In this document: one piece after another, positions 16,081 through 59,198 of the stretch
Layout: each line of letters opens with the position of its first letter
Numbering within the stretch: the stretch's first letter is position 1
Source of the DNA: Branchiostoma floridae
Lineage: Eukaryota; Chordata; Leptocardii; Amphioxiformes; Branchiostomatidae
Length of the DNA: 64,000 nucleotides
Direction of reading: 5' to 3'
Assembly: GCF_000003815.2 (NCBI RefSeq)
Contig: NC_049995.1
Coordinates: 13,292,062 to 13,356,061 of the forward strand
Position numbers and translations under genes: made by a program
The notes under the pieces: generated by a model
The model's input: the letters and a program-made list of their open reading frames with translations, nothing else
Databases searched by the model: none
What the model was told of the DNA's origin: nothing

Positions 16081-16177
16081 ATGGATTTTTTGCCTTGGAC
16101 ATCGGGGCAACGACAGAAACGAGTTTTGTGCTCGTTGGCATTCCCAGTTGTTTTGATCCTTCTATTCCCTGGTGGAG
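16081..16177 (+). CDS. Gene B exon 1: start and signal peptide
   Basis: ATG at 16081 gives 32 codons: a basic N-region (GQRQKR), then VLCSLAFPVVLILLF. Donor GTAAGC leaves phase 1. Confidence 0.85.
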
Positions 16178-19100
16178 GTAAGCAGCAATTTTCAGCCATT
16201 TGAGTCATGTGTTAACGCTTCTTTAACTTTCTAGCATTTTCTTCATCAGCATTTTAATAGTATCTGGCGTGACTTTGAGCGTTACTTGAAAAAAATATTT
16301 AAAAAAATTGCAAATCGTGAATATATTACTAATTTGATGATATTACTGATAATACTTTCAATTTGTCTAATATTATTAGAAACATTTAATTGGTAATGTT
16401 AACGTTAACATTAAGTTACCGCCTACATTAATCATAATTTGGTTAAGATACAAAATCACTTGACATATTAAAAGTGCAACTGATGTGATGAGAGCCAAAA
16501 TCATATACAACATACATTTTCTCAGAGCAATGTAGATTATAGAAAGATCTTTATATGTTTTGCAGTACACTGTTCCGTCACTTCACCTGAGTTCACAGCA
16601 GCCCAGATTGGTCAGGACGTGACAGCTACATGGACCTACTCTCCTCCTGAGGGGAACCCTCCGTTGTTACTCATCAGAGCAGTGAAAGGAGCATCACAAC
16701 AAGTGTTTCAGCATTATGTGCAGACTGGAACAACGTTACTAGAACCAGTTTATGATGGTCGGGTTGAGGTTGTTGTAACAGACTCACAGGTAGACTGTAC
16801 ACTGAAAAACTTTACTGCCACTGATGAGGGATCTTACGAAGCTGAATTTACCTATAGTGGTACTGGAATATGGATTTCTGAAAACAGCTTCACATTTATT
16901 GCTGTCACTGGTGAGTAAGCAGTAAGGAATTGTAGGTCTCTTCAGAAGACTAAGATTTTGCAACATTAGTGGGATGAGGAGGTTTTTTTAAGGACACAAG
17001 GCTGTTCTAAATTCTCTTTCAGAATACATTGTGTGAATTATGTAGTGCTATATGAATCGCATTAAAGGTGTTGTGTATCTCTTAGCATATTGGTAATGTT
17101 ATATTCCGGATTCATTCATGTGCTTTATGGAAACCTTGTCAGCCATCAATAAACATCAAATGTTTAAAAAAACTGAGGAAAACATCATGAATTTTAATTC
17201 ATCCAGTTCGTAGGTCTGTTCAAAATTAGTGGAGAAGGGCACACTTTATTTGGGTTTTTCCATTTTACCTTTCAGTCCCACAGGTCTGTCTAAGACTTGC
17301 CCAAATCAGGGATGCGTATTTTAATTGGAGTGCTTTGAGTTAAAGCACCCCAATTAACTCTATTTGAGAAAACACGGTAGATTATTCTGTGCCAAAACAA
17401 CCCGCAAGTTGGGTACCATCAAAACATACTGTATTTCAATAGATTTCACCCTCCTTCAGGTGTTTTGCTGTGATTTCCGGTATTTAGGCTGACCGGACAA
17501 TAGCAGTTACTACTAAAGTAATGTGTTGTTCTTTCCCTAGAAAATCATTATAAATAGGGTGATAAGCCTCTTGGTGCTAACCACTTTATAAAAATAAACG
17601 ATTACCAAGATTTAAAAAAACACCCCCAGACACCATAGGAATAGCATATACTCTGTCACTTGTCACTTTCAGGATAATTTATGTTGCCACTTCCTCCAAT
17701 GTACGTTTTCGTATCATTTAAGGTAGGGTATTTTAGTGAGCATAAACATTCCTCATGATTTAAACCTTTCTTCCCTAACCCATCTATCAATAGTTATAGC
17801 TCCAGTGTGTCATCAGAACAGTCTCCCCTGTTTGATTCCTTTCTTTTATACATATCAATGTTAGTTCAGAATGATCAGTGGCTTCCATCATTTCTTCACA
17901 GTTCCCCCCGACCCCATCCTCACCATCAGCTTCTACACCACCAGCGTGTCGGAAGGACAGTCCGTCCCACTGACCTGCACGTCCACCCAGGGGAAACCTC
18001 CCTCCCAGGTCACGTGGTGGAAGGGTGATGTGGAGCAGCAACAAGCCGTCTACAACAGCACTCCTAATGCTAGTACTTACCAAGGAGACGCCATGAGTGT
18101 GCTGACTCTATCTGTCCAACCTGCCAACAACCAGGAGACGTACCAGTGTAGGGTCAGTCAGCTGGGGAAGGAGCTGGAGCGGCGGGATTTGCAGCTCAAT
18201 GTCAGATGTAAGTACAGTAAAAAACTGACCGAATAACGTTGCTTACTTTGACAGGTAACGTATTGCAACTGAGATTTTTTTATCATAGCTCTAACCCAAC
18301 ATGTACTGTACTGCAGTCATGACCGATCCCCCTGTCCTGACCGGCTACTCTAGCCCCATCTCCAGCGGAGGTTCCCTGAACCTGACTTGTACCTCGGGTA
18401 ACAGCTACCCTCCAGCCAACATCACATGGACCCGGGTGGGAGTGGGGACAGTGGCTGGAACTGACCAACCACAGACAGACGGACAACATGGCGGAAAAAT
18501 CACGTCACAACAGATCAGTCTTACCAACCTGCAGGCTCGGGACAACGGAGCTCAGTTCAGGTGTACAGCTTCAAACAGTTATCTGGGACAGAATTCCAGT
18601 CTGAGCAGCTCCGCTGTCTCGATGGATGTTAGATGTGAGTACAATTAGAAGTATGAACTTGTACATCATGTGGCTATATCATTATATCTAATGGTCGATA
18701 GTTCGAAAACATGCTTTAAGCATTGACTGTCTGCTACCCATAGTGTCTTGATCTTAGTTTTGAAACTTATTTGTCTCTAAAACGCTAATTCCCTTTCTAC
18801 TAGTTTACCTTGAAGGAATCAACATTACTGGCCACACCAATCCCGTGCCAAGCGGAGGTTCCCTGACCCTGACCTGTACCTCGGGTAACAGCAACCCTCC
18901 TGCCACCATCACATGGACCCGGGTGGGAGGGGTGTCACCAACTGGAACTGACCAACCACAGACAGATGGACAATATGGCGGGAAAATCACGTCACAACAG
19001 ATCAGTCTTACCAACCTGCAGGCTCGGGACAACGGAGCTCAGTTCAAGTGTACAGTCAATAACTCTGCTGTCAGCCAGAGTGAGGAGAAGACTGTTACTA

Positions 19101-19228
19101 TTGATGTACAATGTAAGTCATTGATCAACATTCTCTGATTCTAAAGCTTTATGATATAAGTATTGCAATAACAGAATTGTTATGTTGCAAAAGTTTTTTA
19201 TATGTTTAAACCTAATTGATCCTACGGG

Positions 19229-19270
<42 letters not shown>

Positions 19271-22200
19271 GTTTGTGTGTGTTTATGTATTTATATATTT
19301 AGATTTTTAGATATATACATGTAGTTGTCGTGTTTCATTTTAGATGCACCGGCCAACATCCAAGTGACCTGCAACCTCATTGGCCTGAGTGACCTGAGGG
19401 AGGGTGACACCCTTGTGTGTACCTGTACAGCTGATAGTAACCCAGCCGCCCAGTACAACTGGACAAAGGACAGCACAACTGGTCCCCTTCCTGCAGGTGC
19501 AGTAGTGAACGAAACAGCAGGGACTGTCACCTTCAGCACCCTAGACAGGGCACACAGCGGGGAGTATAGGTGTGCAGCTAACAACGGTATCAGTCCTGAG
19601 GCAACAAATAGCAGCATCACAGTAGATGTCAACTGTAAGTAGAAGTTTTACCTAAAACAATCTTTAGAGACTTTTTGTGCATTTTCCTAAATGACAATTG
19701 TTGCGAAGCTTGATTTGGCGTTACTATCGTCAATATCGGTTTTCCTGGTGCTTGTCAAATACACAAAATGTGAGAAGATAAAAGTTACATGTAAATCTTT
19801 GTCATGACCAACAGGTCCCTTGTGATTCTGCTTTTTAGTGTCTTTAAAGCTCAAATCTAGTGTCTTGATGTTGGAGTTGATCCCACCTAAATAATTATGT
19901 ACATGTAATGTAATGTACCCACCTCTTGTATACTTAACAGTTAAACACATCACACATTTTTTTGTCAAAACAGGCAATACTTCAACAGCTGCATGTATAA
20001 TGTTAAATGTAGAGCATAGAATATTTGATATTGTTCTGCTGTTCCTCAGACCCCACCAGTATCACCTTCATCACTCCCCCTGTGACTGTTGATGAGTATG
20101 ATGACGTCAACCTGACCTGTACAGCTGACAGCAATCCTGAACCTGAACCAGGCAGCTTCAGCTGGGCCTACATAGACGGTACAACTCTAGCGGGCACTGC
20201 AAGTGAGGATGGGTTCAGCTTTACCACAAACATTGCAGTCATCACTTACCAACAGGCGGGGACGTACACATGTACAGCTGGCAACGGGATTGGTGCTGCC
20301 GCTTCTGCAGGGACTAATGTTACTGTGGAATGTGAGTTTGCCATTTTTCCAAAGTAAATTCCATGCAGTTTATTTGAGATTTAAGCAGTTGATTTGCACA
20401 GAAATAAATTATTCTGAGTCATTTACTTAATTGGTAGTGCCTTATTATCATTCTCATCTCAGATTGCTTGAACAAGATTTCCTCATAAGCTCTTCTAAAT
20501 TTCAGACCCTCCCAAGTTCTACCCTTCCACTGGCCCCTACCCAGCAGCTGTTGGTGCAGACGTCTCCATGGAGTGTTCTGCCTTCGCTGTGCCCAACAAT
20601 ATCATCTTCAGCTGGTCCAAGAATGGAACAACTCTGACAAACTCCAGCCGACTCACCATCCAGTCTTCATGGGAAAAAGTGATCCTCACGATCAGCAATG
20701 TGACGGAAGGGGACTACGGGACGTACAACTGTACAGCAGACAATGCAAAAGGGCCAGCAACAACTACCAGAAATCTGTATAAAATAGGTAATTTTTAATA
20801 TTGCATAATACATAATTTACATGTACGTTAGATTCTACTGTTCACAATTTTTTATTGTTATTTTTTTTTAATTTATCTTATGTTTCGTATTAGATTAGTA
20901 TTTAGTTAAGTGGAGGAGGGCACTTTACAAACCTTTTAGGCTTCTCCCCTCCCTGGCACTTTTATTTACTTGTGGTATACTTGTTATTGTTAATAATATA
21001 TTATATTATATAGTATGATTATATTTGTTATTGTTTTTGCCATGTGCGAAATAGATAAACAACAAATATTTAATCGGATATATTTGAAAGCTTAAAAATA
21101 CTTTAGAGGGTCTTAATATCTTATTGTTATCAATGTTTTATGTATTTCTCCCAGGACCACCGAGCAGTCCCAGTGAATTCAGACTCTTGTCCAAGAATAC
21201 CAAGTTCGTTGTTAATATCACCTGGACAGCAGGTTCTCATGGCGAACTGAACACAACTCACACAGTACAGCTGAAAAAAGCAGGGACAGATCAGTGGGAA
21301 GTTGTGGGTAGCCTTGAACAAACTACAGCCCAGCAGCAGCAGCGTACGTTCAACATTGCACTCGACCTGAAGGCACAGCAGGCTGGGGACTATCAGATCA
21401 GAATAAATGCCAGGAACACACAGGGAGAGGCATGGTCTGAGTCTGTGGATCTGAAACTGGAAGGTACATGGAATACATGGAAAACATTTTGTGTCAACCT
21501 TTTATTTACAAGAGGAAAATATACAATGATCTTATCGAGTACGAGGGCTCTATTTTGTTTCTGCATTTTACATTATCATTGACTATAAAAGATGTCAATT
21601 TGAAAGCATTGTAACATTCGACGCGATCAAACTGCGATATAAAGTCAAGTTGGTTGTTTCTTACAGCAAGCCATCGCCTGTCTGGAAGGATGACAACGAA
21701 TGAAAACTGGGTGGAGGCCTTGAAAGACAGCGAGTCAACTGAATTCCGACTAAAGGCAGCTTTGTGGGAGAGAAATGTGAGTCAAAATGCTGAAACTTAA
21801 GAAAGTTTGTTATGTAGTTTTTGTTTTGCTCCTTCATTATTTGATTCTTTATTTTGTATCATTTTAAAAAGGCCTTTAAGAGTTGTCTCAATATTGAAAT
21901 AATGTTACATGTATCTCTGGTTTTGTTTTTCTTGTTGTCTATAATGGATATTTACATAATGTATACACTATACATATTGAGGATTCTGTCAACGTACAAT
22001 GTTCAAACATGTATTAGAAGCTAGTTAAATGATATATCATGCATGTTATCGGGGGAAGAACATAATAATGATGATGTTCTTTTTCTTTCTTTCAACAGTT
22101 GGACACAGTTTTTAGTTCTTTAATCGGATATGAGGGTGCGACCATAACACAGTTCAGGTAAGCCAGTAATCTTGCATTCACTTCTTTCTAGATTAGATCT

Positions 22201-25200
22201 TAAAACTTTCCTTAAAATATCATTGAATCTATGATGACCTGGGTCCCAATTCCGATTCACAGCCAGGGCAGTGTTGTAGGGGACTTTCAAGCAGTGGTGG
22301 CCGAGTCAGAAACACAGGCAGCTATAGAAGCTTTCGAGACACAAGTCAACGCAGGCAGTGTGGGCGATCTTACTGTGGTCAAGGAGAGCTCACAAATTTC
22401 TGTCACAAGGCCTCCTGGTAAGCTTAATGGTATTTTTCCACTTAACTAAAAGAGAAAGGAAGTAAAAAATATATATCTGATAGTTTTGAGGTTGGTCTTG
22501 TGTATAGAAATATATTCCTGCCATCGGTATGCTCATAATGTGTGCTTGTGTAGCATAATTATGTTTTTGTGACATTCATTCTGATGTTCAACTTTTCTTC
22601 TTTTGCAACCTTCATTATAAATCTTTTTAATTACCTCCTAAGTCATTGACTTTTTGTATTTGAATATTTTGATAATCATTGTAAACTATCATATCAATCA
22701 GTTTGCTTTTTTCATTCACATTTTGGCGTCCTGCATGTTTTTGATCACAGATTGTGGCAAGATTGTTCCAAACACTGATTTTAAAGTAAAAACAAAATGT
22801 CTACAACGGGTCATTGCCTTTGATGCACTTTACGTGTGAACACCTATGATCAAATTGTTATACTAAGTCGCCAAGCATTTTAGCTTGAGATCAATCTCAT
22901 CTTAGGATTATGAAGTAGATTTACTCTAAAGTATTTTTGAGAAACATGATAAGAAATAAAATAGGTCGGTGTCACGTCGGTGTGTTACGCCGAACGGCGG
23001 TTATACCGGCTATATAGATACGGATACAGATACGTTTTGACTCAGACTGCAATTTCCTTATTCTAAGCATTTGGACCCAATAGTCAATTCCATTTATATC
23101 CTTTTCCGTCAATAATAAATGTTGAACAGGAATACCTTTGCCATGGTGTGTTTTGGGAAATTACAAAGTGTGTCTGCGTCGTTGGCAGTATTTTCGTGTA
23201 ACCTGTGTTGAATCCTACACGGTCTGCTGCAAGTTTTAAAAAATGTGTCCTATGCAGGCTGCTACCATTGTCTTAACATTACGGTTTTTGTGTTCACGGA
23301 ATGTCTGCAAGCCAAAGTCTCTGATTACTCCCCTTCCCCCTCAATGGGCATGTTTTTCGGATTTTACTTCCTTGTCTTAATTTGACTCTGCGTTGCCTTG
23401 GGAGGTTGGTAGTATCTTAACACTTGTAATTATCGTCGTTACTTTTAACCCCGCAATACCGATTCGTGTCTTTGCCCTTGGGCCATGCTGAAATGATTTC
23501 CATTCTACTATTGTTCTGTATACAACACATCTATTTTGAAAAACATACAATAAAGATCTTTTGCACTGTCAATGCCACAAAAAATTGTTTGTTGTAACAA
23601 ACACAAGTATGATGTAAATGAGCTGATTTTCAGATTGCTGCTTTAGTATGCAGCTTTTTGTAACATAGTTTTCACCCATGTTTCGTACACCAGATGGAGG
23701 AGTTAACATCACTTCTACCACCATCATCATCATAGCTGCAGTATGTGGAGTTGTGGTTGCAGTTGTCGTTGTTTCTGTGTGCGTGTGCGTTTGTAGGAAG
23801 TCAGCAAATGGTGAGTGTGAAACATGCATTCATTTATTGAATTGTTCCGTCCACATCTCATTTTGTAATTCAAGATTATCAAACACTTTTAGAGGCACAT
23901 CACAAGAAGCACTGTATAAAAAAACGTAAAATTGCACTCACAAGTTTGCTCACTTTTTTGTTGGCATAAGATATTTACTTTGCTTTTCTTTTAGGCAAGA
24001 AAGGCGGAGCGCCTGAAGAAGGCCTAGGGTTGGTTTACTTATCTTTTATTTCTAATCAGCTGGGGAGCCAGAATGCCCCATTTCATGTTGGTTATGACGC
24101 CGTAACACGTGGAAAATCATTAAAATTACCGGTTATATGAATAGTTCAATAACAGATTGTTAATTGATAAGAAGAACGCTGCCTCAAAAGTACTTTCACC
24201 TCTGCCCAGAAAGTGGAATGAGTACACACATTGCAGGGGGTGGGGTGGCTACTTCTGTTTACTTTGGTTGTGCGTTTCTTTGTTCAAAGACAAAGGTTTA
24301 ATGTCTTAGAATACGGATAGATGATACGCGTGACCGTTTGCAGTCCATGTCGTAACAGGTGTTTGGGGGCCAAGTCCACTTACGAGAACCTGTCATATTC
24401 AACTTTCAGTAACATAATCAGTAAAATTTGTTAATATTCAAATACTTGGAACTGAAATACCCTTCATGTTAGAGTTAAAGGTTATATGTTGTTCAAAGTC
24501 AATGTTCAAATTTATTGAATATGTATAACATAGTATTGAATAAAGTATGAATGTGTTAGAAATGAATTTTTCTATGGTATTAATATGAATGAATATGATA
24601 CTAACTTTAATGACTCCACTGGTCCTAGGTGTATATGGTGTCAGAACGCCTGGTCCTTTGCGATAACCTGGTCCTTTGTACACTCTGCGTTTTTATTCGG
24701 TGGTTATAGCAAAGCACCAGGCGTTGACACCATATAAACCTCGGGCGGGTCATCATTCCTTAATTAGCTTAACTGTCAATTGTGTCATACATGTTACGTT
24801 GAAATCTTAATCGAAAATTATTTTAGAAGGTTAGAAATCCAGGTAATAAGAAAAGGTACACTGTCAACCTTGTCCATTCTATAAAGCAGCCGGCATATAA
24901 CTTTGAGATTTTATAATGAAACTCTGCATTTGCCGGTGCTATAGACTCACTTCTGCTGATAGACCAACGTCAATGAATGGCCTCACAAACCACGGGTTGG
25001 ACCAAAGCACGGAAAACATCCCCGGTGGGGAAGGTAAACACAACAGCTTGTTGTTGTATAGTTTTTTTGTTGTTCGTGCATCTAACGTAGGAATCTCAAA
25101 CCCTTGGGTATCGTTCGAGCTTACGTCCCTGTGCCCAACCCACCCTAGCAAATATAGAGGACGATGAAATCGGGGATCCCCTGTACCACAGTGCTGCATT

Positions 25201-28200
25201 TTCAACATATGTACCTGTTTGTCAGTTTCATTTTTTTTTTTTTTTATTCTAGAGGATGTTGTAGTTAGAGGGGGTATCTAAATATCAAAGAGAGAATATG
25301 ATGTGGTATAGATTGGGAATTTTAAACATGATTATATTACAACAAGCATGTCAACTTATGGCTCAAAGTCAAAGTGTTACGGAAATAAAGAATAGTGTTT
25401 GTTTTTTTCAATTTTGTTACTTACTATTATAATTACAATTGCCGGTATTGTATAAAGATAAACCTAGACATACTGACATGCTCTTGTTTTCTACCTCTGG
25501 CCACGGCCTACGATTAGTTCAATTGTCTACTATGAACATTTACAACGATGTGCAAAGTGACCAAGACGAGGGGACAGGGGCCGTTGCCATGGCAACAGCT
25601 GGGCCTATAGACCCCAACGTGCAGTATTCAACTGTCAACAAGAACGGTGAATGTTTGTTTGCATGATTAATGTTAGCAGAATATGCAATAACACCGTAAA
25701 AAATCGGTTGTTCTGTAGAACTAGAAAATAGAATGTACCCATTGACTGCCACAAAGCAAATGTCTATTCTTCATTTCATTTTACATATGGTTGTTTGCAA
25801 TATATTTTACGCACACGTATGCTATGCTCCCAATTTACTATTACAAGTTATGTTCAAAACTCGCCCAAAGAATCATTTTGTTTCTCTCCCTATTGTTCCC
25901 CTGTTGCATTGGTCTCTGTCATTTTAGTAAAATTACTTGCACTTCGATGTTGGGGCTCCGATAATATATATTAAAGACGAAATTCTTGTAAACACACGTT
26001 GTTGACACCCACATACTAAATTAATGGAATTTCTACATGCATCACTTTACAATAATTTAGGTTGAGACTTTTTGTATATAATGCTACCTTGGGCATGGAA
26101 AGTGTTGGTCACAGATTGGTCATTTTTGTATCAAAGAGACCATATTGGTTGTTATTCTTTCTGATCGATCTTGAAAGGAGTGTTGCAAGAGTAGCCGACA
26201 CATACTGACATGCTCCTTAACATTAGCTTCTTGGTTTCTGCTGCGTTTAGTTCAAATACCGACTGGGAACCCTTACGATGACGTCCATTTTGAGCGGGAC
26301 GAGAACATGGGAGCAGTGGACGGGGAAGCAGCAGGACCTGTAAACCCAACCGTGCAATATGCTACTGTCAGCAAGAACAGTGAGAAGTTTCAGTAGTCTT
26401 ACTATTTTGTCTAATTTTTATTTGCTAGGAAGACAATGTTGAACAGTTTTTGTCAGATTTAGTTACATCATGGCCATGAGTATTTAACGTGTTGCTAGCG
26501 CTCTTCCAAGTAATGACCCGCAATGTTTTTAGCTACCGGCCCCAAACTGTAATCTCATCAGTACACAGTTTCTGTGGCGAATATGCTCCACACCTGTCAG
26601 AAACAACAAACCCACATTTTTTCCAAAACATGGGGACCAGCCAAGTTCATATGGCCTCGTTTTAACACACAGCCAGCAAGCTGAGTCCACGGTCTCCCTT
26701 TTCTGGTACGAAGCCAAAACGCGACACGGCTGTGAACACCTGTGCCTATGATATCCAAAGAATGTTTACACACAGTAGGATTGCGTGAACCCTAGAACGC
26801 CTGACGGCTCAATCATGTATAACGACTGGTGACAACAAGACAGGAAAGTGTCAGTACTGGGAAAAGAGGAGTCCGGTTTTTCCTTGAGAAAACTTATCTA
26901 ATTCCGTGAGGGGACACAGAAAAGTTCCTGATGAATTTTTCGCTATCTACTTCCCCTTTGAAAAGGAAAAATAGGAACTAAAATAGGTGAATGGATGTTT
27001 TTGATCAATGCATGCCAAACTTTATGTATCAATTGACCTGTAATCAAATTGTACTAGTAATAAGAGATGTTACTCAGTTTCTTCTAGATACATTTCTTAG
27101 AAGTAAGCAGGATTTTATAGTATGTATCAAATAAGATAATTCATTAAATTTTAAAGGTAGGTTTATACTAGAAAAAAGCTGATTGTATACCATGGCCCCG
27201 AAAGGCCCAAGCATTTAGAATATAATTTTCCCCTTTTTATTGTATTAAAAAAATCTCTTCCTATGAACAATTAAAAGAAAAAATTAAAAGAAAACATAAG
27301 TTTCATCTCTCACGATGAAAGCTGTCTTGGTGTAAGCAATGCCATGTTCTAATGTATACATTACCGAAAACGACAACATTGTCAGAACCACAGTCAAAAC
27401 CAGATTTCAAATTCATGCTGCAAGTGCTGTCTTTTTTACAAAAGAAACATAACAATTGCTTACTTGCATCAACCCAATAGTATGAAAAAAGAAAGATAGA
27501 AAACAAATTGTGGACTGAATTTTTAAATGCCAGGACAAAATGATCATGTGTCTTTTGATACACACCTGGAAATATCGGCATGTCACACTAAAAATCTTAA
27601 GATTCTTAATATCCTATTTCTACTTTTAGTTCAAATAGCGACTGGAAACCCTTATGATGACGTCAACTTTGAACGTGATGAGAAGACAGGATTCGTTGCC
27701 GGGGCAACAGCAAAGCCTCTAGACCCAACCGCGCAGTATGCTACTGTCAACAAGAACAGTGAGTTCTTGGGTTGTGTTTTCTTTATTCATTTGTTTCTTG
27801 GGTGGCAGAATAGTGAATAGCTTTGTCAAAAATGGGATATCAAGCTTAAAGATATAGTTGATAGGTTGTTCTTCGAAGTTAATAGAATGAAGATTTTGAT
27901 GCTACATTATTCATGTCCATGTGAGATATATATATTGAATGTTTAGTTTGTCTAAGATTTCATCCAAGTGATGAACGGAAACTGAGTCAGCAGTCTAAGA
28001 GTCAAAATGAATGTAAGGACACCATGTGGTTCACAGAAAGCTTCCTATCAGGCATCTTTAGATTAGAATATACTGCACACCAGTCATAAATAGCTTCCAA
28101 ATCCTTAACAATCGCAAACTTACATACAAGCGTTTCCTGAAGCAACGAGACAACAACAATTTGTTTGAAATACGTTAGGAGGCAAAAATGATATCATATA

Positions 28201-37503: not shown

Positions 37504-37578
37504 TTAGTACTTCTCGTCCGAGGCGGTTTGCAGACTTGTATAGGTGTTCTCATCCAGCGTCGCCAAGTTGATGTAGTC
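37504..37578 (-). CDS. Gene C last exon: tail with YINL
   Basis: Acceptor TTAACACCCAG, 24 codons plus [19 protein letters not shown] carries a Y-x-N and a Y-x-x-L motif. It is nearly identical to the gene D tail. Confidence 0.93.
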   Translation of the reverse strand, partial: DYINLATLDENTYTSLQTASDEKY

Positions 37579-40500: not shown

Positions 40501-43500
40501 TAAGAGTGAGTGAGTGAGTGAGTGAGTAAGTGAGTGAGTGAGTGAGTGAGTGAGTGAGAGTGTGTTGTGTCTTAAGTGATGGCAGTCATCCTTTTGCACA
40601 AACCTGCATCCGTGCAGCATCCGAGAAACGACACAACGTTGGGATGAGTCCCAAGTAGCTTCAGTACTGTCAACTCTTTGAAGAAAGCAGTCGAGGCAGT
40701 GGGACTCGACATACCTAAATATCAAATAATGATAGATGTAGATAATACCGCTAGAAGACATGAAATCTTAACTGAAACAAGAAATGTAGATTTCAGATCA
40801 ACTTGGTTCATTCAGACTGCTTTTTAATTTTGAACTACCTTTTACCTTTCAATTCCTTGACAGCCACAGTTTTCACACCTTCGCCTCCCGAAATTTTCCA
40901 GGCTTCGGCCTTGTAGACACTCCCGAACTCCCCTTGTCCAAGCTTCTCTTTGATGTTCAGTTGATTCCTCGGGAATTCTGAGGATGGTTTTACATCTTCA
41001 TAAGCGACATCTGGTGTATCCTAATATATAAGTGGTAAAAAATAGTGATCAGAAAATGCGAAAACGAAGTACCAGTGATGATTATCATAAACCCATCATG
41101 AAAATTGTAGAATTACCTCCGTTTTACTGCTTGCCATCAAACCTTGATACGTGTGGTCGGACTGTGGAAACAGAAAGAGCTTTAGAAATTTAATAACTTT
41201 GTAAAACCTTTGTATTTTTTGAAATGCTGAATTATTGAAAGTAACTTTTTTTTAGCACGTGACTCTCAATCAAGACTTATACTTGAAAGTTCATTATATT
41301 GAGCATTTGTTTTCCAAGAAATTCTTCTAAGCAAAGTCAAGCACAATAAGGATATGACATATCAGATGTACCTTCTGTCTGCGAGGCATTCTCAGACTCT
41401 GATATCCGTCGTCCGAATTACCTGCCTTAAAAATACAATTAGCATGTTGTGACATTAAAAATCAGTAAATCATTTGTAGACACTAAGGGACTGTGCTGTA
41501 AAAGAGATGGTATACTTAAAGACTTCCTTCCATATAATCTATGTGTACTTTGCACTCTCAAAAAATTCTGAGTAATCGATGACTTACTACATTAGGTTCC
41601 AATTCCATGCTACTAGACGCTTTTTTCGGCGGCTTATCTGAAATATTCAGAATCAATGTTTCATACAAAATTGACAGAAGACGTAGGTGATTGCAACAAA
41701 ATGTACGTGATTAAACGATATTACATTCATGTTCATATGTGTCTCATAGGCTGACCAGTCAAGAACAGTTTTACGGGGAGCTTTTATTGAAAGGATAAGG
41801 AAAACTTGCAAAGATATGATAATTGTGTATCTCCGTAATCATTTACTCACCACGAGCGGCATGTCTTCTCATGAGGAATATGGCAACAACAACCACAGCT
41901 ATCAGCCCCACAACACCGACCACTGCGGCTATGATGATTATAGTGGTTGAAACTCCACCGCTCACTGTAAAGACAAAATAACTGTCAGTTTTTGCATGAG
42001 CTACTATTTTATATTATACGTTAATTGATAATTGATATAAATCTTCGGGTGGGGACCAAAGTAGAATCAAAGACAACACTATCAAGGGTTACAAAAAACA
42101 TTACCTACTTTTTATCATAAGCAACTATTTCCTGGCTACCAGATCAAGCAGGTAAGCATACAGCATATGTACAACAACTTTTTTATTCATTACAAGAATT
42201 AATAAACTAACCCGCAGGTTCAGCTTCACTTATCCTGCTGTTCTCAGGATCCACCGTGAATCCGTTCTCATCAGGATCCCCCAGCTGTCCATCTACCAGG
42301 GCATCAGTGTACGTAGCCTGGGCTGCAGCCGACTCAGACTGGGCCACAGTAGCCAGGAAATCAGCAAGGACGCTCCCGGACCTGGCAATAGAAGTTGGCA
42401 TTCAGTATCTATGACCGTCTCTTTGTGGGAACTAGGAAAGTTAAAAATCACAACTCTCCTTTAGTGACTGCAAACATAAATTTTAAATCTTCTTAAAGTA
42501 ATCATACTGAAAACTGACATAATTCTTGAAAACAAAGTCAAAAGGAAATACGTATTATTATCAAATAAATACAATGTATAGAAATTGTTAATGCCAACCT
42601 GCAGCCTGTCACATCTGCCTCTTCATAGCCTTTGTATTGCTCAAATATAGCTCCCAGCTAGAAATAGAAAAACATGAAGAGCAACTTACTGAGCAAATTA
42701 AAATCTTGCATCATTTTTTCAATGTGTGACATCATAATATATAATGTGCTTTGATCAAGCTACACAGTTACTAAGTTAAGTCAGCTAAACATTAGATTTA
42801 ACAGATGAAGGAGTTCAAAGTTTCACCTACATGTGTTACTATCCTGGTAGAAAGCTCTCCATCACAAATCCCCTTGGTGTACTCAATACTGGTGATGGCG
42901 AGGGTTCCATACAGGATCTGATTATCTGGGGAAGAAACATGACAACCAGAAACCTTAGCTTTTTTATATATATAATGACAAACACCTTGAAAGCATTGTA
43001 CATTGAAAATTTCATTGAATGTGTTAATCAATGGACCGACAACTGTGAGAATGTGTGTCATTGATTATTATGTTTATTATCATCATGATTATCGTTATGT
43101 GGAAAGAAGAAAATGAAAAGTCTTTTAACTCTAATATAGTACACACTAAAGTCTTCATTACAAATAGTTTGGAGAAATACCTATGAATAAATTACCCTTG
43201 GAGAAATAGTTACAACTGTTATTTTGATTCAATTTAATACAGTTTGGCCAAGATTGGTTAATTATACATGTAATGTACCTTCTATTTCAACCTGGATGAC
43301 GTTAGAGTACACAGCCCCCTGACTGTTCTCTGCCTGGATGCGGATCTCGTACTGTCCTTTTCCATGGAGTTTCACATTCTCAGTGAACTCAGGTCTGTTC
43401 TTGGAAGCTTCTTCGGGGACTTGTTTGACAATGACCCAGTCTGTAGTCTCCTCCAGCCTGTACTGTACGGTGTGATTTGTCTCCAGACCACCGTTAAACT

Positions 43501-46500
43501 CAGCTGTCCATGCCAGGGTGACATCCCCCGCAGCTGTCTTCTTGGTGTAGTCAAGGTTGGTGGAAGGTTCTGGTTTGGCTGGGTTTGAATAAACAGAAAA
43601 TTAGAATTTTGTTAGCTACACATGTACATCCACCCGATACTGACAGTTTATTGTAACTTGTAGTTATAACAAAAAATATCAATGAAGAAAAGAACGCAAA
43701 AAAGTATTAAACTTGTGGTTGCTTCTATTCAAGCAGTTTTGTTACAAAAAGATGAAAATGGTAAATATAGCCCAGTTGTTTACACTTACTTTCAGCCACA
43801 AGTTGGATGACTGTTGACCGTTGTCCATACCCATTGGTGGCGGTACATGTGTAGTCCCCATAGTGCTCCCTCTGCACATCTGCTATGTACAGTGTGCTGA
43901 CTCCGTCGTGACTGGTAGCATTACCACTGATGTCATATCCACCCTTCATCCATGTGTAGACTACCTGTGGTGGGTAGGCGAAGGCAGAACACTCCAGTGT
44001 GACCGGCTGGGACCTGCCTACAGCGTACCTGTCTCTGGTGTGGTTAAAGAGCGGGATAACTGGGGAAAACAATGAGAAAAGGAAAGAAATACCAGTAAAG
44101 AAATTATGGTATAGTATTATTAGTTTCATGTATGCATGTCCTCACAGGAATTTGATTCAAAACTACAAGTATTTATTTATGTATTTTGCATAATCAAAAA
44201 TCCTTACTTTGCACCTAAGTTGAAAAATCACTGTAATTAGACTATTAAAAAATTATTACAAACTTTAATCGTAGACAAATATTCAATGATAACAATGACG
44301 CACTTACAGTTGACATTAAGTATGAGGTCCTTGCTCACAGGTGACCCCGTTACACCATTATCAGCTGTACACCTGTAGATGCCTGCATTTTCATGACCAA
44401 CAGAACTGTTTGTGTAGGTGAGAGAGTTTCCTGTAGTCTGCTGCAGAAGAGTTTCTCCTGTCTCCACAAACATCCACGTCATGGAGGTGACGTCAGGGAC
44501 ACTGTCTGCCTCACAGGTCAGGCTGACGGACTGGGCCTCGTTCACGGGGTTGGGAGTAGCGGTCACTGTCAGCTCGGGGGGATCTGGGGGGAGAGAATAA
44601 TCTTTTTTTGGACTGCCATTCAATGTAGGTGAAATCTTGGTCCAACATTTAAAAGAACTAACATGTAAATAAAAAAATAGAAAATGCAATGATGAACTGT
44701 GATGAGAAGTCGTCAACCAAGAAAGAGCCTCGTGGCATCTGTAGGCTCTATAATACTGTTAACTCTAAGGGGGAAGAATCATTTTTTGTAGGACCTCTGT
44801 TGCAGTAGTCCAACATTTCAGTACCAACATGTAAGATTTAAAATAGAACATGCACTCAAGAACTGTGATGAGAAGTCAGCACCAAGAAAGGCTGCCTCTG
44901 TCAGGACATTTGTGGACAGGAACATACACGTAAATGTGTACAGTATGTAAATTAATCCAAACATTGTGTATTGAAGGAAACAATACAAGCCAGGAAAGAC
45001 AGTTCATGGATGTACTTATATGTAGGCAGTAATTACATAGATTGATGCACCATGCTTATCAGCATGAATGTTATACAGGACAGACACTTTTGCCTAGTCT
45101 TACAGTATTAGTTATCTACAGTCTACAAAAACAAGTGCTTTTAAAAAAGCTGGCATTTTGCCAATGTTTGCGTATGTGAACGTTTTTTTCTAGTTATTAG
45201 AATGTCATATAAATAGAACAGAGTAACTAAACCTGATATTGGCGCATGGAGAGATTCACATATGTGCCTGAACTGCAGCAGATCTAGACGCCACCTGTTA
45301 AAATTTGCGTGAACTGCAGCAAATTTCACTACATTTTTTTCATTGCCTGTTTTTGAGTGAGCTCTGTTGCCGGGCATTTTTAAGTTGTTTTTTTTTTATT
45401 TTTATTTCTACTCGGCAAAAAAACGAAGCGGTGAATCCGTTAACCAAAGAAATAAATTGGTGTAGCCAAATGGATGTAAAAATTAGTATTTTAATGGATG
45501 TAAAAAAGAAAGAAAAAAGTTGAAAAAAAATCTACCTCCCCGGATTCGAACCGGGTGCATTGGTTTAGAATGCGTAAACTTTACCACTGCGCTAGTGCGA
45601 ACATGTTCAAGAAATGCCTGTTTTAACAGGTATACAAATGTTTGGCATGGATTGAACAGGTCCGTTCATCTCAACATCACAACATCACAACGGCGACTAC
45701 ACTGGCCAGAAGGCATTTTGCGACTGCAAGTCGCAAAATGCAAAAAAAGTCAGAAACCAGGTCATGAAAGTTTCAAGACTTCAACTTCAGTCAATAAAGA
45801 AAAAGGCTGAGGTGACAGCTGATGACAAATAACACACCATGATTGTATACAAATGTGCAAGTATACATTGTACGTATGCCAGGACTTTGACTTCCCATTG
45901 ACCTTCATGGCAAGAAACAAATTAAAGGAATCTTAGAGGCAAATCATTAACATTGTGGACAATTTGTCAGAAGCTGATGACTCAGTTATTCACATAAGCA
46001 GGACATACTGTTCAGTCTTTTAGTATACTGTCAAGAAGTATAGTTTTGGGAGCATTTGTGCAGCGCGAAGACTCATGCGGCAGGCTTGTCTGTGTGCGGT
46101 AAACTGTCAAAGCTTACAATTCACGATGATCTCCAGCGTTACAGTTTTAGTCTCAGTTGTGCCCTTTTGATTGTTGAAAGCTTCACAGATGTAGGTTCCA
46201 GCATCACTGCGGTCTACTTGTTGGAAAGTCAAGACGTTGCTGTTCCATTCATCAGAACTGTTCTGTTTGGTCCACTTGTAACCAGCGGTAGGATTGGCAA
46301 CAGCTGAACACATGATGTTGACAGAGTCTCTCTCTAACACGGTCACAGGTGAGGTTTGGTTCAGTGTTGGTGTGTCCAGACCTGAGCAGGTTTGTAGATA
46401 CCGTTGATGTTATTATCATTTGATTATGACATTTACCTTAGAATTTCACATTTAAAGCTTACAATTTGACTCAAACTAAGACTGATGTTCGTCAAATAAC

Positions 46501-49500: not shown

Positions 49501-51473
49501 CTGTCCGCTGTATGTTTGGGATGGCCAGCTGTGCTGTAGAGGAGACAGCTGTGGTGCTGCCCTGTTTCTTCCACTCCACACTGGCAGCAGGCCTGGCAGA
49601 CACAGTACACTCCACAGTCAGGGTGTCATCTTCATTCACAGTGTCCTCAGATGGGGCTGATACCTCAGGGGCATCTGGGTAGAAAAAAACAACATCATGA
49701 AACCACGTCGGCCTTAACGTTGCATTCTATGCCATTGGTTACGGTTTCGACAGTAAAAATACTAAATGCAATAGATTGATGCTTTTATGAAATGATATTT
49801 ACTGAAATATGGTATTAGAAGGTCTCTTAGTGGGTTCATAACAATGATACAATTGTCAAAAGGAAAAAAATACATATTATTAAACCTTTCTGATATCCGA
49901 AACTTAAAGGTTACACCTAACAATATATTTTACAACTTAAGAAGTTTTGCTGATACTTTCAGCTTACATTCCACACTGAGAACAGTTGATGCCGTATCAG
50001 GTGTGGTTCCCATATTGTTGGTCACCTCACAGGTGTAGGTTATGTCATGTAGGTTTCTTGGGGCATTGCTGATGGCGAGAACACCGTTATTCTCGCTGTA
50101 GCGGTCCTCTGTACCGGGGTCAATGACCCTGGTGCCTTCCTTCCATGTGTAGCTGAAGGTGTCAGGGGTTCCCTCAGCAGGACAGCTGATTGTGGCGGAC
50201 TCGCCTTCTTTCACACGGGTTGTACCGGGTGGGGGTGTGGTGATGCTGGCTGGGACTGGACAGAAGGGAAACATCAGATTCTGATTCACTTCATCTTCAT
50301 TTTCATTTTACTCAAACATCATTCATACCACATTAGTCATGCTGTACGGAGGTTTGGGCTATTAGTAAATTATTAATTTGCCTTATCAGTTACATATTAA
50401 GCTTTATGCTTGAGACGAAAACAATGCGTAATCACTATTATAACAGATATTAAAATGTTGTTTTTTTATTGCATAAAAAGATATCTCGCAATGCCAGGTT
50501 CAGAACTAACCGTCACTTCATTATATCTGGCGTCAGAGTATGCTTTGATTTGTAAGATTCGATATTCAATAACACCAGAAGGGTGTATATTTGTACGCGT
50601 GTCTGTGTTAGTTGAGCAATGCTTACCATGGTACAATATCATATCAGGAACCGTTGTACAGTTCAGTGTCATCATATTGGTATTGATGCTAATCAGGCTT
50701 TTACCATGCATTTTTTCACACCGACTTTCTATTGAGGGAAGAAATGATTGTCTACTTTGAAGTAGTTGAATATTTTAGATGTAGACGGAGATTGAAAACT
50801 GTGCCTTACAGCAATATCAGGTACAATTTCAGATGAAGGTCGTTGACATTTCTATGCAGTGATTGGACTTGAGTGGCCATTATCAACTGAAAAAAGGAAA
50901 AGAACTCCAGTCACCTGCCAGTATGAGCTGTGCACTTTCCTCAGGTGAAGCGCCACCGTCAACTAAAAGAGAGCACCTGTAGACCCCAACATCTGCAGAC
51001 GTGACCCCGGTCAGCTGAAGACTGGCCTCACCATTGGTGCTTGTCCCTGTTGTTGAAGCTCGGCTGGCATAAACAGAGTAGATGTAGGGCCCACTTCTGT
51101 CTATTTCCAAAATGTCATCCACTGGGTCTACACTTGTTTTTCTCCATACTAATCTAATGAAGGATTCCCCAGATCCCAGTGTATATCGCCATGGAAACAA
51201 GACTGTTCCTCCTTCAACCACATAGTAGGTCGGCTCGTTGTTGGTGATGGTTGCTCCTGATGATAGGAGGTGATTAGTCTATTCACTCATTTATTCGTAT
51301 TTTCGTACTTTCAATATATCATGTTTTAGCCTAGGGAAAGGATAGTAGATACGCACTTTCACTGTCCCGAGCACGCATGTGCAGTGACAGGAATTGTGGA
51401 TAATATGCCAAAGGATAAGACACAGACTTGTAAACAGTACTCGCCATGACCATTGTCTCGATTTGCATAACAT
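37504..51473 (-). CDS. Gene C: Ig/FN3/SEA receptor tyrosine kinase
   Basis: Twenty-six minus-strand exons total 4470 nt (1489 residues plus stop) in one frame: 51353-51473, 50915-51256, 49968-50255, 49411-49674, 48873-49136, 47012-47275, 46505-46768, 46118-46381, 44308-44583, 43790-44059, 43279-43578, 42831-42925, 42599-42657, 42212-42381, 41851-41964, 41588-41637, 41372-41425, 41117-41161, 40846-41020, 40604-40714, 40102-40283, 38761-38874, 38526-38637, 38315-38411, 37907-38006, 37504-37578. Order: signal (1-40), V (41-154), eight Ig (155-872), FN3 (873-972), SEA (973-1080), TM (about 1084-1112), kinase (about 1186-1465), short tail. The kinase has [23 protein letters not shown] and MAPE, so it should be active. 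Tail YINL fits a Grb2-type Y-x-N site. It is closest in feel to the FGFR/Tie class, but no orthologue is claimed. The signal exon is the weakest part. Confidence 0.92.
37907..38411 (-). CDS. Gene C exons 24-25: kinase C-lobe end
   Basis: 38315-38411 (phase 1-2) encodes [12 protein letters not shown]...YRMDKPKHC. 37907-38006 (phase 2-0) encodes [12 protein letters not shown], the conserved Arg of subdomain XI. Both are standard tyrosine kinase signatures. Confidence 0.93.
38526..38874 (-). CDS. Gene C exons 22-23: catalytic and activation loops
   Basis: 38761-38874 encodes [10 protein letters not shown] and [18 protein letters not shown] (one activation-loop Tyr). 38526-38637 encodes [13 protein letters not shown] and [17 protein letters not shown]. 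The HRDLA-x-RN form marks it as a tyrosine kinase. Confidence 0.95.
39780..40050 (-). repeat. Interspersed CCTCCATG repeat (copy 3)
   Basis: Inverted relative of 47505-48620. It shares the complement of AACTCAAGAACGG(T/C)TGG-like and CATACTTGGTGTGTTGG-like strings and ends in CATTTCATGGAGGTAATGA. It lies in gene C intron 21. A small related end fragment sits at 38950-38985. Confidence 0.75.
40102..40283 (-). CDS. Gene C exon 21: kinase hinge
   Basis: Phase 1-0, 182 bp. [17 protein letters not shown] is the hinge, followed by a Thr/Gln/Gly-rich insert and [12 protein letters not shown]. Confidence 0.94.
40440..40562. repeat. (GTGA)n microsatellite
   Basis: Interrupted GAGT/GTGA tetranucleotide run in gene C intron 20. 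The matching intron of gene D (57810-57880) has a decayed version. Confidence 0.9.
40604..41020 (-). CDS. Gene C exons 19-20: kinase N-lobe
   Basis: 40846-41020 (phase 0-1) encodes [15 protein letters not shown], glycine loop GQGEFGSV and VAVKELK. 40604-40714 (phase 1-1) encodes [12 protein letters not shown] (helix C Glu) and [11 protein letters not shown]. Confidence 0.94.
41117..41637 (-). CDS. Gene C exons 16-18: juxtamembrane micro-exons
   Basis: Three small exons: 41588-41637 (50 bp, phase 1-0), 41372-41425 (54 bp) and 41117-41161 (45 bp), the last two phase 0-0. They carry GYQSL and TYQGLM tyrosine motifs. The acceptor of the 54-bp exon (TTTTTAAG before GCAGG) was chosen over the AG three bases on to keep frame. 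Confidence 0.78.
41851..41964 (-). CDS. Gene C exon 15: transmembrane helix
   Basis: Acceptor TTTACAG, donor GTGAGT, phase 1-1. [15 protein letters not shown] then [15 protein letters not shown]. Its start matches the gene B TM exon ([16 protein letters not shown]). Confidence 0.94.
42212..42925 (-). CDS. Gene C exons 12-14: SEA domain
   Basis: 42831-42925 (phase 1-0), 42599-42657 (0-2) and 42212-42381 (2-1). [31 protein letters not shown] and [16 protein letters not shown]. Layout and the GSV(L/V) position match gene B. The fourth residue is Leu, so autoproteolysis is less certain here. Confidence 0.85.
43279..43578 (-). CDS. Gene C exon 11: fibronectin type III domain
   Basis: Acceptor TTCAAACCCAG, donor GTACAT, phase 1-1. 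[21 protein letters not shown] and [16 protein letters not shown] are FN3 strand signatures and close to gene B exon 9. Confidence 0.93.
43790..44059 (-). CDS. Gene C exon 10: Ig domain 9
   Basis: Phase 1-1, 270 bp. [20 protein letters not shown] and [12 protein letters not shown]. Closest to gene B exon 8 (same membrane-proximal position). Confidence 0.93.
44308..44583 (-). CDS. Gene C exon 9: Ig domain 8
   Basis: Phase 1-1, 276 bp. [17 protein letters not shown] and [11 protein letters not shown]. Confidence 0.93.
45535..45601 (-). pseudogene. tRNA-like polymerase III unit (degraded tRNA or SINE head)
   Basis: The minus strand carries an A box (TAGCGCAGTGG, 45584-45594), a perfect B box (GGTTCGAATCC, 45542-45552), intact anticodon and T stems, and a T8 terminator at 45524-45531. 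The acceptor arms pair poorly and the variable loop is too short, so a working tRNA is unlikely. It lies in gene C intron 8. Confidence 0.65.
46118..46381 (-). CDS. Gene C exon 8: Ig domain 7
   Basis: Phase 1-1, 264 bp. [19 protein letters not shown] and [11 protein letters not shown]. Confidence 0.92.
46505..46768 (-). CDS. Gene C exon 7: Ig domain 6
   Basis: Phase 1-1, 264 bp. [19 protein letters not shown] and [11 protein letters not shown]. Of several acceptors, only CTTGTAATAG before ATGAAC gives both phase 1 and the family length. The upstream CTCTCCTAG has a better tract but breaks the frame. Confidence 0.85.
47012..47275 (-). CDS. Gene C exon 6: Ig domain 5 (duplicate pair)
   Basis: Phase 1-1, 264 bp. 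[19 protein letters not shown] and [13 protein letters not shown]. Nearly identical to exon 5 (48873-49136). Confidence 0.92.
47505..48620 (+). repeat. Interspersed CCTCCATG repeat (copy 4, contains gap)
   Basis: Starts ACCTCCATGAAATGTAATGG and a TG run, then several AACT(C/G)(A/C)AGAA...GGATT sub-blocks, and ends TTTTCATGGAGGTATGAGGT near 48600. It fills the intron between the duplicated Ig exons. Confidence 0.8.
48435..48534. other. Assembly gap (100 N)
   Basis: Exactly 100 unknown bases, a conventional placeholder whose true length is unknown. Confidence 1.
48873..49136 (-). CDS. Gene C exon 5: Ig domain 4 (duplicate pair)
   Basis: Phase 1-1, 264 bp, nearly identical to exon 6. The visible peptide difference is VDITPN against VEITPN. 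Confidence 0.92.
49411..49674 (-). CDS. Gene C exon 4: Ig domain 3
   Basis: Acceptor TTTTTTCTACCCAG, donor GTAAGT, phase 1-1. [19 protein letters not shown] and [10 protein letters not shown]. Confidence 0.93.
49968..50255 (-). CDS. Gene C exon 3: Ig domain 2
   Basis: Acceptor CCCTTCTGTCCAG, donor GTAAGC, phase 1-1. [20 protein letters not shown] and [10 protein letters not shown]. Confidence 0.93.
50915..51256 (-). CDS. Gene C exon 2: V-type domain
   Basis: Acceptor CCTCCTATCATCAG, donor GTGACT, phase 1-1. VLFPWRY (W where the B-strand Cys is expected), [21 protein letters not shown]. The same FPW signature is in gene A. Confidence 0.9.
51353..51473 (-). CDS. Gene C exon 1: candidate signal peptide
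   Basis: ATG at 51471-51473 opens [14 protein letters not shown] and a hydrophobic core ([11 protein letters not shown]), then Cys-rich residues. Donor GTATCT is the only nearby one giving phase 1. Another first exon further upstream is possible. Confidence 0.45.
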
Positions 51474-58518: not shown

Positions 58519-58609
58519 CTGTGGAAAAAGAAAGAGCAGTTTGCGAGCTCAGTGCGACCTATTTGAAATAAAGTAAATCTTTAGTAACCCTTAAACATAT
58601 AAAGCTTAC

Positions 58610-59198
58610 TGTGACGGAGTCACTGCAATAGTTTTAGGCATGCCCAAGGCTAACTGCGCATGAGCAGGGAGAAGGGGATAAGGAGACGAAACTTCGGCAG
58701 TGTGAAGTCCTGCTATGTAGATTTAGAGGTTTCATGGATTAAAAGAGCAACATCGGAACAACAGCGTCGGTCTATCTTGTGACAAGTGGAAATTCACGGA
58801 AGGTCTACGACCGGTAAGTGAGACCCTTAGCCTACGGAACTTCCCGAACGGAACTTTTCATGCAGTAGAGGCGAACGAGAGTGGCCATTAGCCAAGCCGT
58901 GAATAGAAAGTTTGGAAGGCTGTCCGACTGGCCAAGTTGTTGATGTATCCTACTGCTGAGGAAGGGAAGGGTAAAGACTTTCAACCATACTTTCAGTGAT
59001 GCTTTCTTAATTGGATGCATATGGAACCAATTCGTATGGTAACAAACATATTCTTTGTGTGTGCATGATATCAAGCCAGCGGAATAGAACGTCAGCCTCA
59101 GACGGGCTAAAACAAATCACTAAACAATAGAGCGTCACCCCAGACGGGCCAAAACAAATCAGTAAACTGTAGAGCGTAAAATAAGAAAAAAAGGGAAG
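58610..59198 (+). mobile_element. Probable 5' region of an LTR element
   Basis: Begins TGTGACGGAGTCACTGCAAT, an LTR-like TG start, directly after sequence matching the gene C intron. It precedes the gag-like ORF. A doubled AGACGGG(C/T)(C/T)AAAACAAATCA motif lies at 59100-59165. No second LTR or clear primer binding site was found. Confidence 0.5.

Follow-up and report, generated by a model that had tools for sequence, protein, structure and literature searches.

Do two converging receptor genes of the lancelet Branchiostoma floridae, one with an inhibitory-looking tail and one with a kinase, encode a brake and an accelerator for the same signal? Clustered receptors that are alike outside but opposite in their tails act in this manner, and the question is raised by a 64,000-nucleotide stretch of contig NC_049995.1 (assembly GCF_000003815.2, positions 13,292,062 to 13,356,061, forward strand), hereafter the window. 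Gene B encodes a receptor with many motifs resembling immunoreceptor tyrosine-based inhibitory and switch motifs (ITIMs and ITSMs), and gene C a receptor tyrosine kinase (RTK). A sequence-only reading had interpreted the two as a paired-receptor locus. The common plan, the opposite-looking tails and the clustered, convergent layout of that interpretation stood up to our analysis; the pairing of B with C did not, as the two are, by sequence, diverged ectodomain subtypes and not a matched pair. We place both genes, with moderate confidence, in a Branchiostoma receptor family in which one modular outside is joined to interchangeable ITIM or kinase insides, the two types presumably acting as opposing receptors.

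B and C were modelled from reading frame and splice consensus and are predicted genes (Table 1). Gene B runs on the forward strand from 16081 to a stop codon ending at 35100 (21 exons, 1305 residues, all phases connecting), and gene C on the reverse strand from its V-type immunoglobulin (Ig) exon at 51256 to a stop codon at 37504 (25 exons, 1449 codons before the stop, signal exon excluded). The two genes lie tail to tail, as had been described, and form one cluster in opposite orientation within 2.4 kb; a third gene, D, lies on the strand of C. The start codon at 51473 previously assigned to C was rejected, as it leaves phase 0 and fails to join the V exon, and two upstream segments (52197-52140 or 52956-52893) are better candidates for the signal-peptide exon. 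Among the matches listed in a protein database search, the best relatives of B and of C were Branchiostoma proteins.

The rebuilt exons confirmed a common plan in which a V-type Ig domain, an Ig array, FN3, a SEA domain split over three exons with a 59-bp middle exon, and one transmembrane (TM) exon follow one another in identical phases in B and C (V, Ig, FN3 and TM exons 1-1; SEA exons 1-0, 0-2 and 2-1). When the exons of B and C were compared, none of 300 shuffles reached the score of FN3 (z 18), joined SEA (z 15), the third SEA exon (z 11), the TM exon (z 9.5, a value less telling because this segment is hydrophobic) or the second SEA exon (z 5.6). No shuffle of 300 was as good as the match of the membrane-nearest Ig pair (z 20) or of Ig5 of B with Ig5 of C (z 23). 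FN3-SEA-TM aligned with 96 bits, and this region is homologous by tree and by shuffles, which speaks against an origin in unrelated ectodomain families, a possibility that had been raised with the original interpretation.

However, the ectodomains themselves differ. FN3-SEA is 37% identical (66/180), the first SEA exons were not alike (z 0.9, 53/300 shuffles as good), and the V domains showed no direct similarity, two runs giving z 1.3 and 1.1, with 36 and 42 of the 300 shuffles scoring equally well. The very similar distal domains of paired receptors are thus not found in this direct comparison, and because of this we did not class B with C as a member pair. A shared ligand for the two, as had been suggested, is likewise unsupported, given the dissimilar V domains and the low FN3-SEA identity. 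The V domain of P0121, a relative of B described below, resembles that of C (z 4.7), and a remote kinship of the B and C V domains is therefore likely. The C V domain is nearer to the start of P0098 (z 11.1) and to a V exon that stands alone at 9.0-9.35 kb (z 10.8). This V-type Ig exon (9345-8998, reverse strand) has 30/87 aligned residues identical to C V, and at E 1e-3 tblastn with the B and C exons revealed no further Ig exon between 1 and 16 kb. B and C have, in sequence terms, a homologous membrane-near frame without a recognisable common outermost domain.

Pfam gave strong Ig matches in both genes and a kinase match of 306 bits in C. Against the SEA cut-off of 26.4 bits, B scored above (27.5) and P0121 and C below (24.8 and 19.4), with no match in P0098. 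FN3 remained below the cut-offs (C, FN3_DSCAM 20.5 and fn3 16.1 bits; B, only Tissue_fac, 18.9 bits), as did V-set in both genes (18.5 and 24.5 bits), and the V and FN3 labels therefore depend in part on position and on the match between B and C. By eye, the V exon of B lacks cysteines at the usual two Ig positions. The pattern GS[VI][VL][GA]xF was kept in 13/13 SEA rows inspected, which makes self-cleavage of the SEA domain at its G-S site plausible.

The two insides proved to be of the kinds first reported. The tail of B is lysine-rich and 312 residues long, and 12 of its 13 tyrosines fit Yxx[VIL] (p 3e-10, given the composition of the tail itself). Five of these motifs are predicted strict ITIMs ([SVLI]xYxx[VIL]) and two predicted ITSMs (TxYxx[VI]), giving B the ITIM/ITSM tail found on one member of a receptor pair, and YxxM occurs at none of the 13 tyrosines. 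The motifs are likely inhibitory. C has a complete set of kinase motifs (GQGEFG, VAVKE, HRDLA, DFG, APE) which, together with its ectodomain and TM segment, make it an RTK, its signal exon being represented by candidates only.

The search with C supplied the best 120 of 504 matches, from 8000 candidates scored. The FN3-SEA-TM cassette, whole or partial, was present in 12/125 fetched proteins, all 12 from Branchiostoma (P0001-P0005, P0010, P0098, P0121-P0125). These records have unrelated names (nephrin-like, hemicentin-1-like, NPHS1, RET, FGFR2-like or hypothetical) that make no mention of two tail types. Within each source other than the window, all of these relatives except P0005 are recorded on contigs of one length, in keeping with a clustered arrangement. 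P0121 (LOC144907751, a B. floridae x B. belcheri record with five sequences in its cluster) is 52% identical to B over B residues 20-1304, a span reaching almost from the start of the protein to the last tail exon, and has segments missing from the B model; it supports this model from V to the last tail exon. At least seven Branchiostoma models (P0001-P0005, P0010 and P0124, with the TM of P0003 shortened) join SEA to a kinase as in C. Transcripts that join the exons differently had been named as a possible objection; in the database gene models, B-like (P0121) and C-like exons follow one another in an unchanged order. Among 10 relatives of the FN3-SEA-TM-tail region of B, six have a kinase, one an ITIM tail (P0121) and one another short tail (P0123), and two end before the tail (P0122, P0125). 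A search with the ITIM tail of P0121 returned P0121 alone among 7999 scored candidates, its reach being limited by lysine-rich words and B being absent from the database.

B and P0121 are most alike in the later exons of their tails. Exons Y3b-Y7 have 145/180 aligned residues identical (81%, summed), and identity rises from 37% in V through 46-50% in Ig1-3 and 66-68% in Ig4-6 to 75-96% in Y4-Y7, with 53% over Ig1-4. This outer divergence above a conserved tail is as expected if a changing ligand face sat on a constrained signalling tail. Kinase receptors of other Branchiostoma (P0010, P0001 and P0002) are closer relatives of the B ectodomain than C is, with identities of 73, 72 and 73% in Ig1-4 and 84, 63 and 49% in FN3-SEA. 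The P0010 and P0001 models lack a V domain, and that of P0002 is only weakly like B V (z 4.0). D, or a gene outside the window, is a candidate for the matched kinase-type partner of B in this genome.

Phylogenetic analysis separated the outsides of the two ITIM receptors. The FN3-SEA-TM tree (built without P0005 and P0125, parts of which are missing; the FN3-SEA tree also without P0004) placed B as sister to the kinase receptor P0010 (99/99) and P0121 apart, and the fewest tail changes on this tree are two, over seven kinase and two ITIM rows. The Ig1-4 tree comprised two lineages (100/100 each), one with the kinase receptors P0001, P0002 and P0010, the ITIM receptor B and P0122, and the other with the kinase receptor P0003, the ITIM receptor P0121, P0123 and P0125. 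Approximately unbiased (AU) tests against B and P0121 as one clade gave p 5.2e-4 (FN3-SEA-TM, 12 rows), 4.3e-5 (FN3-SEA, 11 rows) and 5.6e-10 (Ig1-4, nine rows), the first two values being weakened because the FN3-SEA-TM tree had already been seen, and the group for the third having been named before the Ig1-4 tree. One-clade trees are rejected, yet the two tails are highly similar; therefore, tail and outside appear to have been recombined. These observations suggest exchange of tails or ectodomains as the simplest reading of the sequences. An obvious joint, at which the breakpoint might lie, is the phase-1 intron that follows the TM exon in B and C alike.

The most likely reading is a lancelet family of opposing receptors with an RTK as the activating type, for which we infer opposition, shared ligands and phosphatase recruitment. 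The outside would comprise a V-type Ig domain, six to eight Ig domains, FN3, a SEA domain with its conserved G-S site and one TM exon, with insides joined at the phase-1 intron that follows. One inside would be the long tail of repeated ITIM/ITSM-like tyrosines of B, and the other the FGFR/Tie-like tyrosine kinase with docking tyrosines of C, which recurs in D. By analogy with the brake and accelerator of clustered receptors, and with an amphioxus ITIM receptor that inhibits, B may be taken as inhibitory and C and D as the activating type. Ligand engagement would activate the kinase type, and the B type, on phosphorylation by Src-family kinases or a neighbouring receptor of the kinase type, would recruit SH2 phosphatases and damp signalling. 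Matched pairs of such opposing receptors would be sought elsewhere in the family rather than in B with C, and the SEA site may allow an ectodomain to be released or held non-covalently. The amphioxus ITIM receptor in question was phosphorylated by Lck, associated with SHIP1 and less with SHP1/2, and inhibited signalling in Jurkat cells (PMC8211107). In a bolder form of the proposal, which we consider doubtful, ITIM- and kinase-tailed receptors would share ligand-binding outsides repeatedly exchanged across the phase-1 intron, and the kinase would directly phosphorylate the tail of its inhibitory partner, giving an inhibitory loop without Src-family kinases or adaptors bearing immunoreceptor tyrosine-based activation motifs (ITAMs).

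Several observations weigh against opposing receptor types, beginning with the dissimilar V domains of B and C and the weakened p values of two AU tests. Only two ITIM-tailed members were found, B and P0121. The relatives are database gene models, and 4/12 of those bearing the cassette (P0121, P0122, P0124 and P0125) come from hybrid records. P0002, which was kept in the trees, looks recombinant, with a B-type FN3 and a C-type SEA. The gradient between B and P0121 is not smooth, with the TM at 41% and the first two tail exons of B (12% and 47%) lacking a clear P0121 partner. The tyrosine motifs of B could bind activating SH2 proteins. Tails of the YxxL-x7-YxxL type are also found in Daphnia and mollusc RTKs, and the tail of C is therefore no sign of an immune role. 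Finally, shuffling of phase 1-1 exons is frequent in lancelets generally (PMC4284660), and shared cassettes alone would therefore be ordinary; it is the conflict between tail and ectodomain trees that lifts the finding.

This last point bears on the absence of any functional pairing, which we regard as possible, if on the unlikely side. B would then be an adhesion receptor of the nephrin or nectin type whose tyrosines dock SH2 proteins, and C an RTK of other purpose, their cassettes shared through exon shuffling and tandem duplication. The phase 1-1 V, Ig, FN3 and TM exons suit such an origin, shuffling of this class being extreme in lancelets (PMC4284660), and so do the related kinases that precomputed Pfam annotation places on other ectodomains in P0009 (CUB, EGF), P0005 (C-type lectin, Ig and SEA) and P0011 (LamG, EGF). 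The V-Ig1 region of B matches nectin-1 (3alp_A; the match as a whole has E 3.9e-13), and the array of B reaches 120 bits with titin, 119 with MDGA1 and 100 with contactin, not far under the 130 bits of FcRL5. However, chance shuffling predicts neither two ectodomain lineages each including both a kinase receptor and an ITIM receptor, nor a tail so much better conserved than Ig1-4 between B and P0121.

It is improbable that B instead serves as a substrate or co-receptor of the kinase type, its 13 tyrosines forming an RTK-phosphorylated docking platform, like adaptor tails, for activating SH2 proteins (PI3K, Grb2, or SHP-2 acting positively). Many closely spaced tyrosine motifs on a basic tail would serve such a platform, the NPYDDV and NIYNDV repeats depart from the classic ITIM, and the homologous TM segments make co-assembly possible; the strict ITIM and ITSM matches and the lack of YxxM nevertheless point the other way, as does the inhibition exerted by an amphioxus ITIM receptor (PMC8211107). 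An artefact of the gene models, with wrong TM-to-tail joins and the B ectodomain spliced to other exons, is very improbable indeed. It could draw on the 1.7-kb intron after the B TM exon, weak splice sites of some tail exons and the interruption, in the window, of the counterpart of the first cytoplasmic exon of P0121, but P0121 has exons of the same kinds joined in the order seen in B, and seven Branchiostoma models carry the SEA-to-kinase join of C.

The family of opposing receptors favoured here resembles the CEACAM, KIR, SIRP and SIGLEC paired immune receptors of vertebrates (PMC5112662) in its apparently similar outsides with opposite-looking tails, clustered genes and opposite orientation. 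It also resembles them in exchange between members, which in lancelets is indicated at the family level, and in a distal domain less conserved than the tail, as between B and P0121. Unlike those receptors (PMC5112662), the lancelet kinase-type member has a built-in kinase in place of an ITAM or a link to an adaptor, the outside is Ig-FN3-SEA, and B and C have dissimilar distal domains. Two other amphioxus receptors described in PMC8211107, BbLcLRR and VCP, likewise have ITIM or ITIM-like tyrosines, and BbLcLRR inhibits in human cells, probably via an SH2 phosphatase. In contrast to B, BbLcLRR is a leucine-rich repeat receptor and VCP a different Ig protein, and no kinase partner with a common outside is mentioned in passages of that source.

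Swapped tails in paired receptors are known best from vertebrate immunity, where activating members use ITAMs or ITAM adaptors (PMC5112662 and general knowledge). The proposed family, in which one kind of outside is combined with either an ITIM tail or a complete kinase, would suggest that paired logic arose outside vertebrates with other parts, and lancelets offer a testable system for the origin of on/off receptor pairs. We found no description of ITIM/kinase paired amphioxus receptors in the open-licence literature, judged mostly by title. A survey of amphioxus tyrosine kinases that reportedly appeared in Mol Biol Evol in 2008 may already list these kinases. What the sequences suggest as new, at the family level, is a kind of paired receptor with an RTK as the likely 'on' member.

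C shares a kinase domain with FGFR, RET, Tie2 and insect Cad96Ca-like RTKs. Its nearest solved single kinase domains were FGFR1 (268 bits) and RET (263 bits), the top row of that search being an EGFR chain with two kinase copies at 157 bits per copy, and the best matches listed outside the amphioxus family came from Daphnia, insects (some named Cad96Ca) and starfish, at about half identity. Unlike these RTKs, the amphioxus family kinases form their own clade (12 rows, 100/99), apart from RET- and FGFR-named rows, in a tree of 37/122 kinase-bearing rows that were chosen by hand and included no Tie row. No grouping of C with Tie, FGFR or RET was found in this tree, and its ectodomain also differs; SEA with a long Ig array is not known as the ectodomain of Tie, FGFR, RET or Cad96Ca. 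Related juxtamembrane-kinase units occur in Branchiostoma behind C-type lectin, CUB/EGF, LamG/EGF and LDL-receptor-repeat ectodomains (P0005, P0009, P0011, P0059), and the kinase of this family seems to change its outside often.

The tail of C, YINL-x7-YTSL, has the spacing of an ITAM. The pattern Yxx[LI]-x6-8-Yxx[LI] was present in 8/11 amphioxus family rows with a tail of at least 15 residues and in 14/106 other tailed rows; the 'tail' counted for P0124 looks like intron read-through. The C tail is another likeness to Tie2, its top match, ungapped over 61 residues (36 bits). An immune ITAM was not retained as an interpretation, given the motif in protostome RTKs and this gapless fit, and the ITAM-like tail of C is probably an ancestral RTK docking tail.

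Table 1. Predicted exons of genes B, C and D, in window coordinates.
Feature	Position	Strand	Phase	Remarks
B signal-peptide exon	16081..16177	+	0-1	
B V-type Ig exon	16566..16910	+	1-1	V-set E 0.0023, below cut-off
B six Ig exons	17902-18207, 18317-18634, 18804-19112, 19344-19634, 20050-20331, 20506-20787	+	1-1 each	
B FN3-type exon	21155..21463	+	1-1	B-C match; no Pfam fn3 match
B SEA, three exons	21667-21776, 22099-22157 (59 bp), 22263-22417	+	1-0, 0-2, 2-1	GSVVGDF at presumed self-cleavage site
B TM exon	23694..23810	+	1-1	
B possible extra cytoplasmic exon	25149..25220	+		Partial counterpart in P0121; weak donor; outside model
B three 129-bp repeated tail exons	25518-25646, 26251-26379, 27630-27758	+	1-1	NIYNDV/VQYSTV, NPYDDV/VQYATV, NPYDDV/AQYATV
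B tail exons	29646-29714, 29876-29953, 30336-30416	+		Tyrosine motifs TVYAQV, SEYATI, AQYSEV
B last exons	34433-34542, 34888-35100	+		Tyrosine motifs VIYTEV; LIYAEL, RYEDA, TEYASI, stop
C V-type Ig exon	50915..51256	-	1-1	V-set E 3.3e-5, below cut-off
C eight Ig exons	50255-49968, 49674-49411, 49136-48873, 47275-47012, 46768-46505, 46381-46118, 44583-44308, 44059-43790	-	1-1	
C FN3-type exon	43279..43578	-	1-1	Below Pfam cut-offs
C SEA, three exons	42925-42831, 42657-42599 (59 bp), 42381-42212	-	1-0, 0-2, 2-1	GSVLADF
C TM exon	41851..41964	-	1-1	
C juxtamembrane exons	41637-41588, 41425-41372, 41161-41117	-		Tyrosine motifs DGYQSL (second), HTYQGL (third)
C tyrosine kinase exons	41020-40846, 40714-40604, 40283-40102, 38874-38761, 38637-38526, 38411-38315, 38006-37907	-		Pfam kinase
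C last exon	37504..37578	-		YxxL-x7-YxxL, then stop
D kinase copy	55883..58518	-		One juxtamembrane exon, seven kinase exons, tail exon

The kinase of gene D gives the same residue as that of C at 295/337 codons, stop included, with its kinase motifs intact. Nonsynonymous and synonymous divergence between the two (dN 0.061, dS 0.393, dN/dS about 0.16) is low in the former relative to the latter, and both copies are therefore constrained. DNA similarity of C and D ends at 58537, beyond which lie retroelement open reading frames (ORFs) and then the window end. An ectodomain for D was not found within the 64-kb window; it lies beyond or was lost behind the retroelements.

Exons Ig3 (48873-49136) and Ig4 (47012-47275) of C, both on the reverse strand, are identical at 260/264 bases, and their 100-nt flanks at 36 and 33 of 100. 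A gap of N lies between them (48435-48534). With flanks so different, a haplotype artefact is unlikely, and the sequences have the pattern of exon-limited homogenisation. Such exon-limited identity was read as gene conversion in a study of Xenopus CEACAM (PMC5112662).

Searches of PDB sequences with the two ectodomains ranked FcRL5 top in each and CEA second for C, with titin, contactin and DSCAM close behind; we assigned no family from these matches because of the close runners-up and because scores rise with the number of Ig domains. Rfam gave nothing at the gathering threshold in the window. The counterpart of the first cytoplasmic exon of P0121 lies at 25091-25220 (forward strand), broken by a stop and a frame change, and only its second half could be an exon. 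Direct repeats at 5882-6569 (42-nt spacing, 68-nt copies) contain CTGGATATCCAG palindromes. Beyond D, a 713-codon ORF (59166-61304, forward strand) has SCAN, zinc-knuckle, aspartyl-protease and RRM matches, an unusual combination of Gag-like features with RRM, and is directly adjoined by an 898-codon reverse-transcriptase ORF that continues to the window end (61307-64000, reverse strand).

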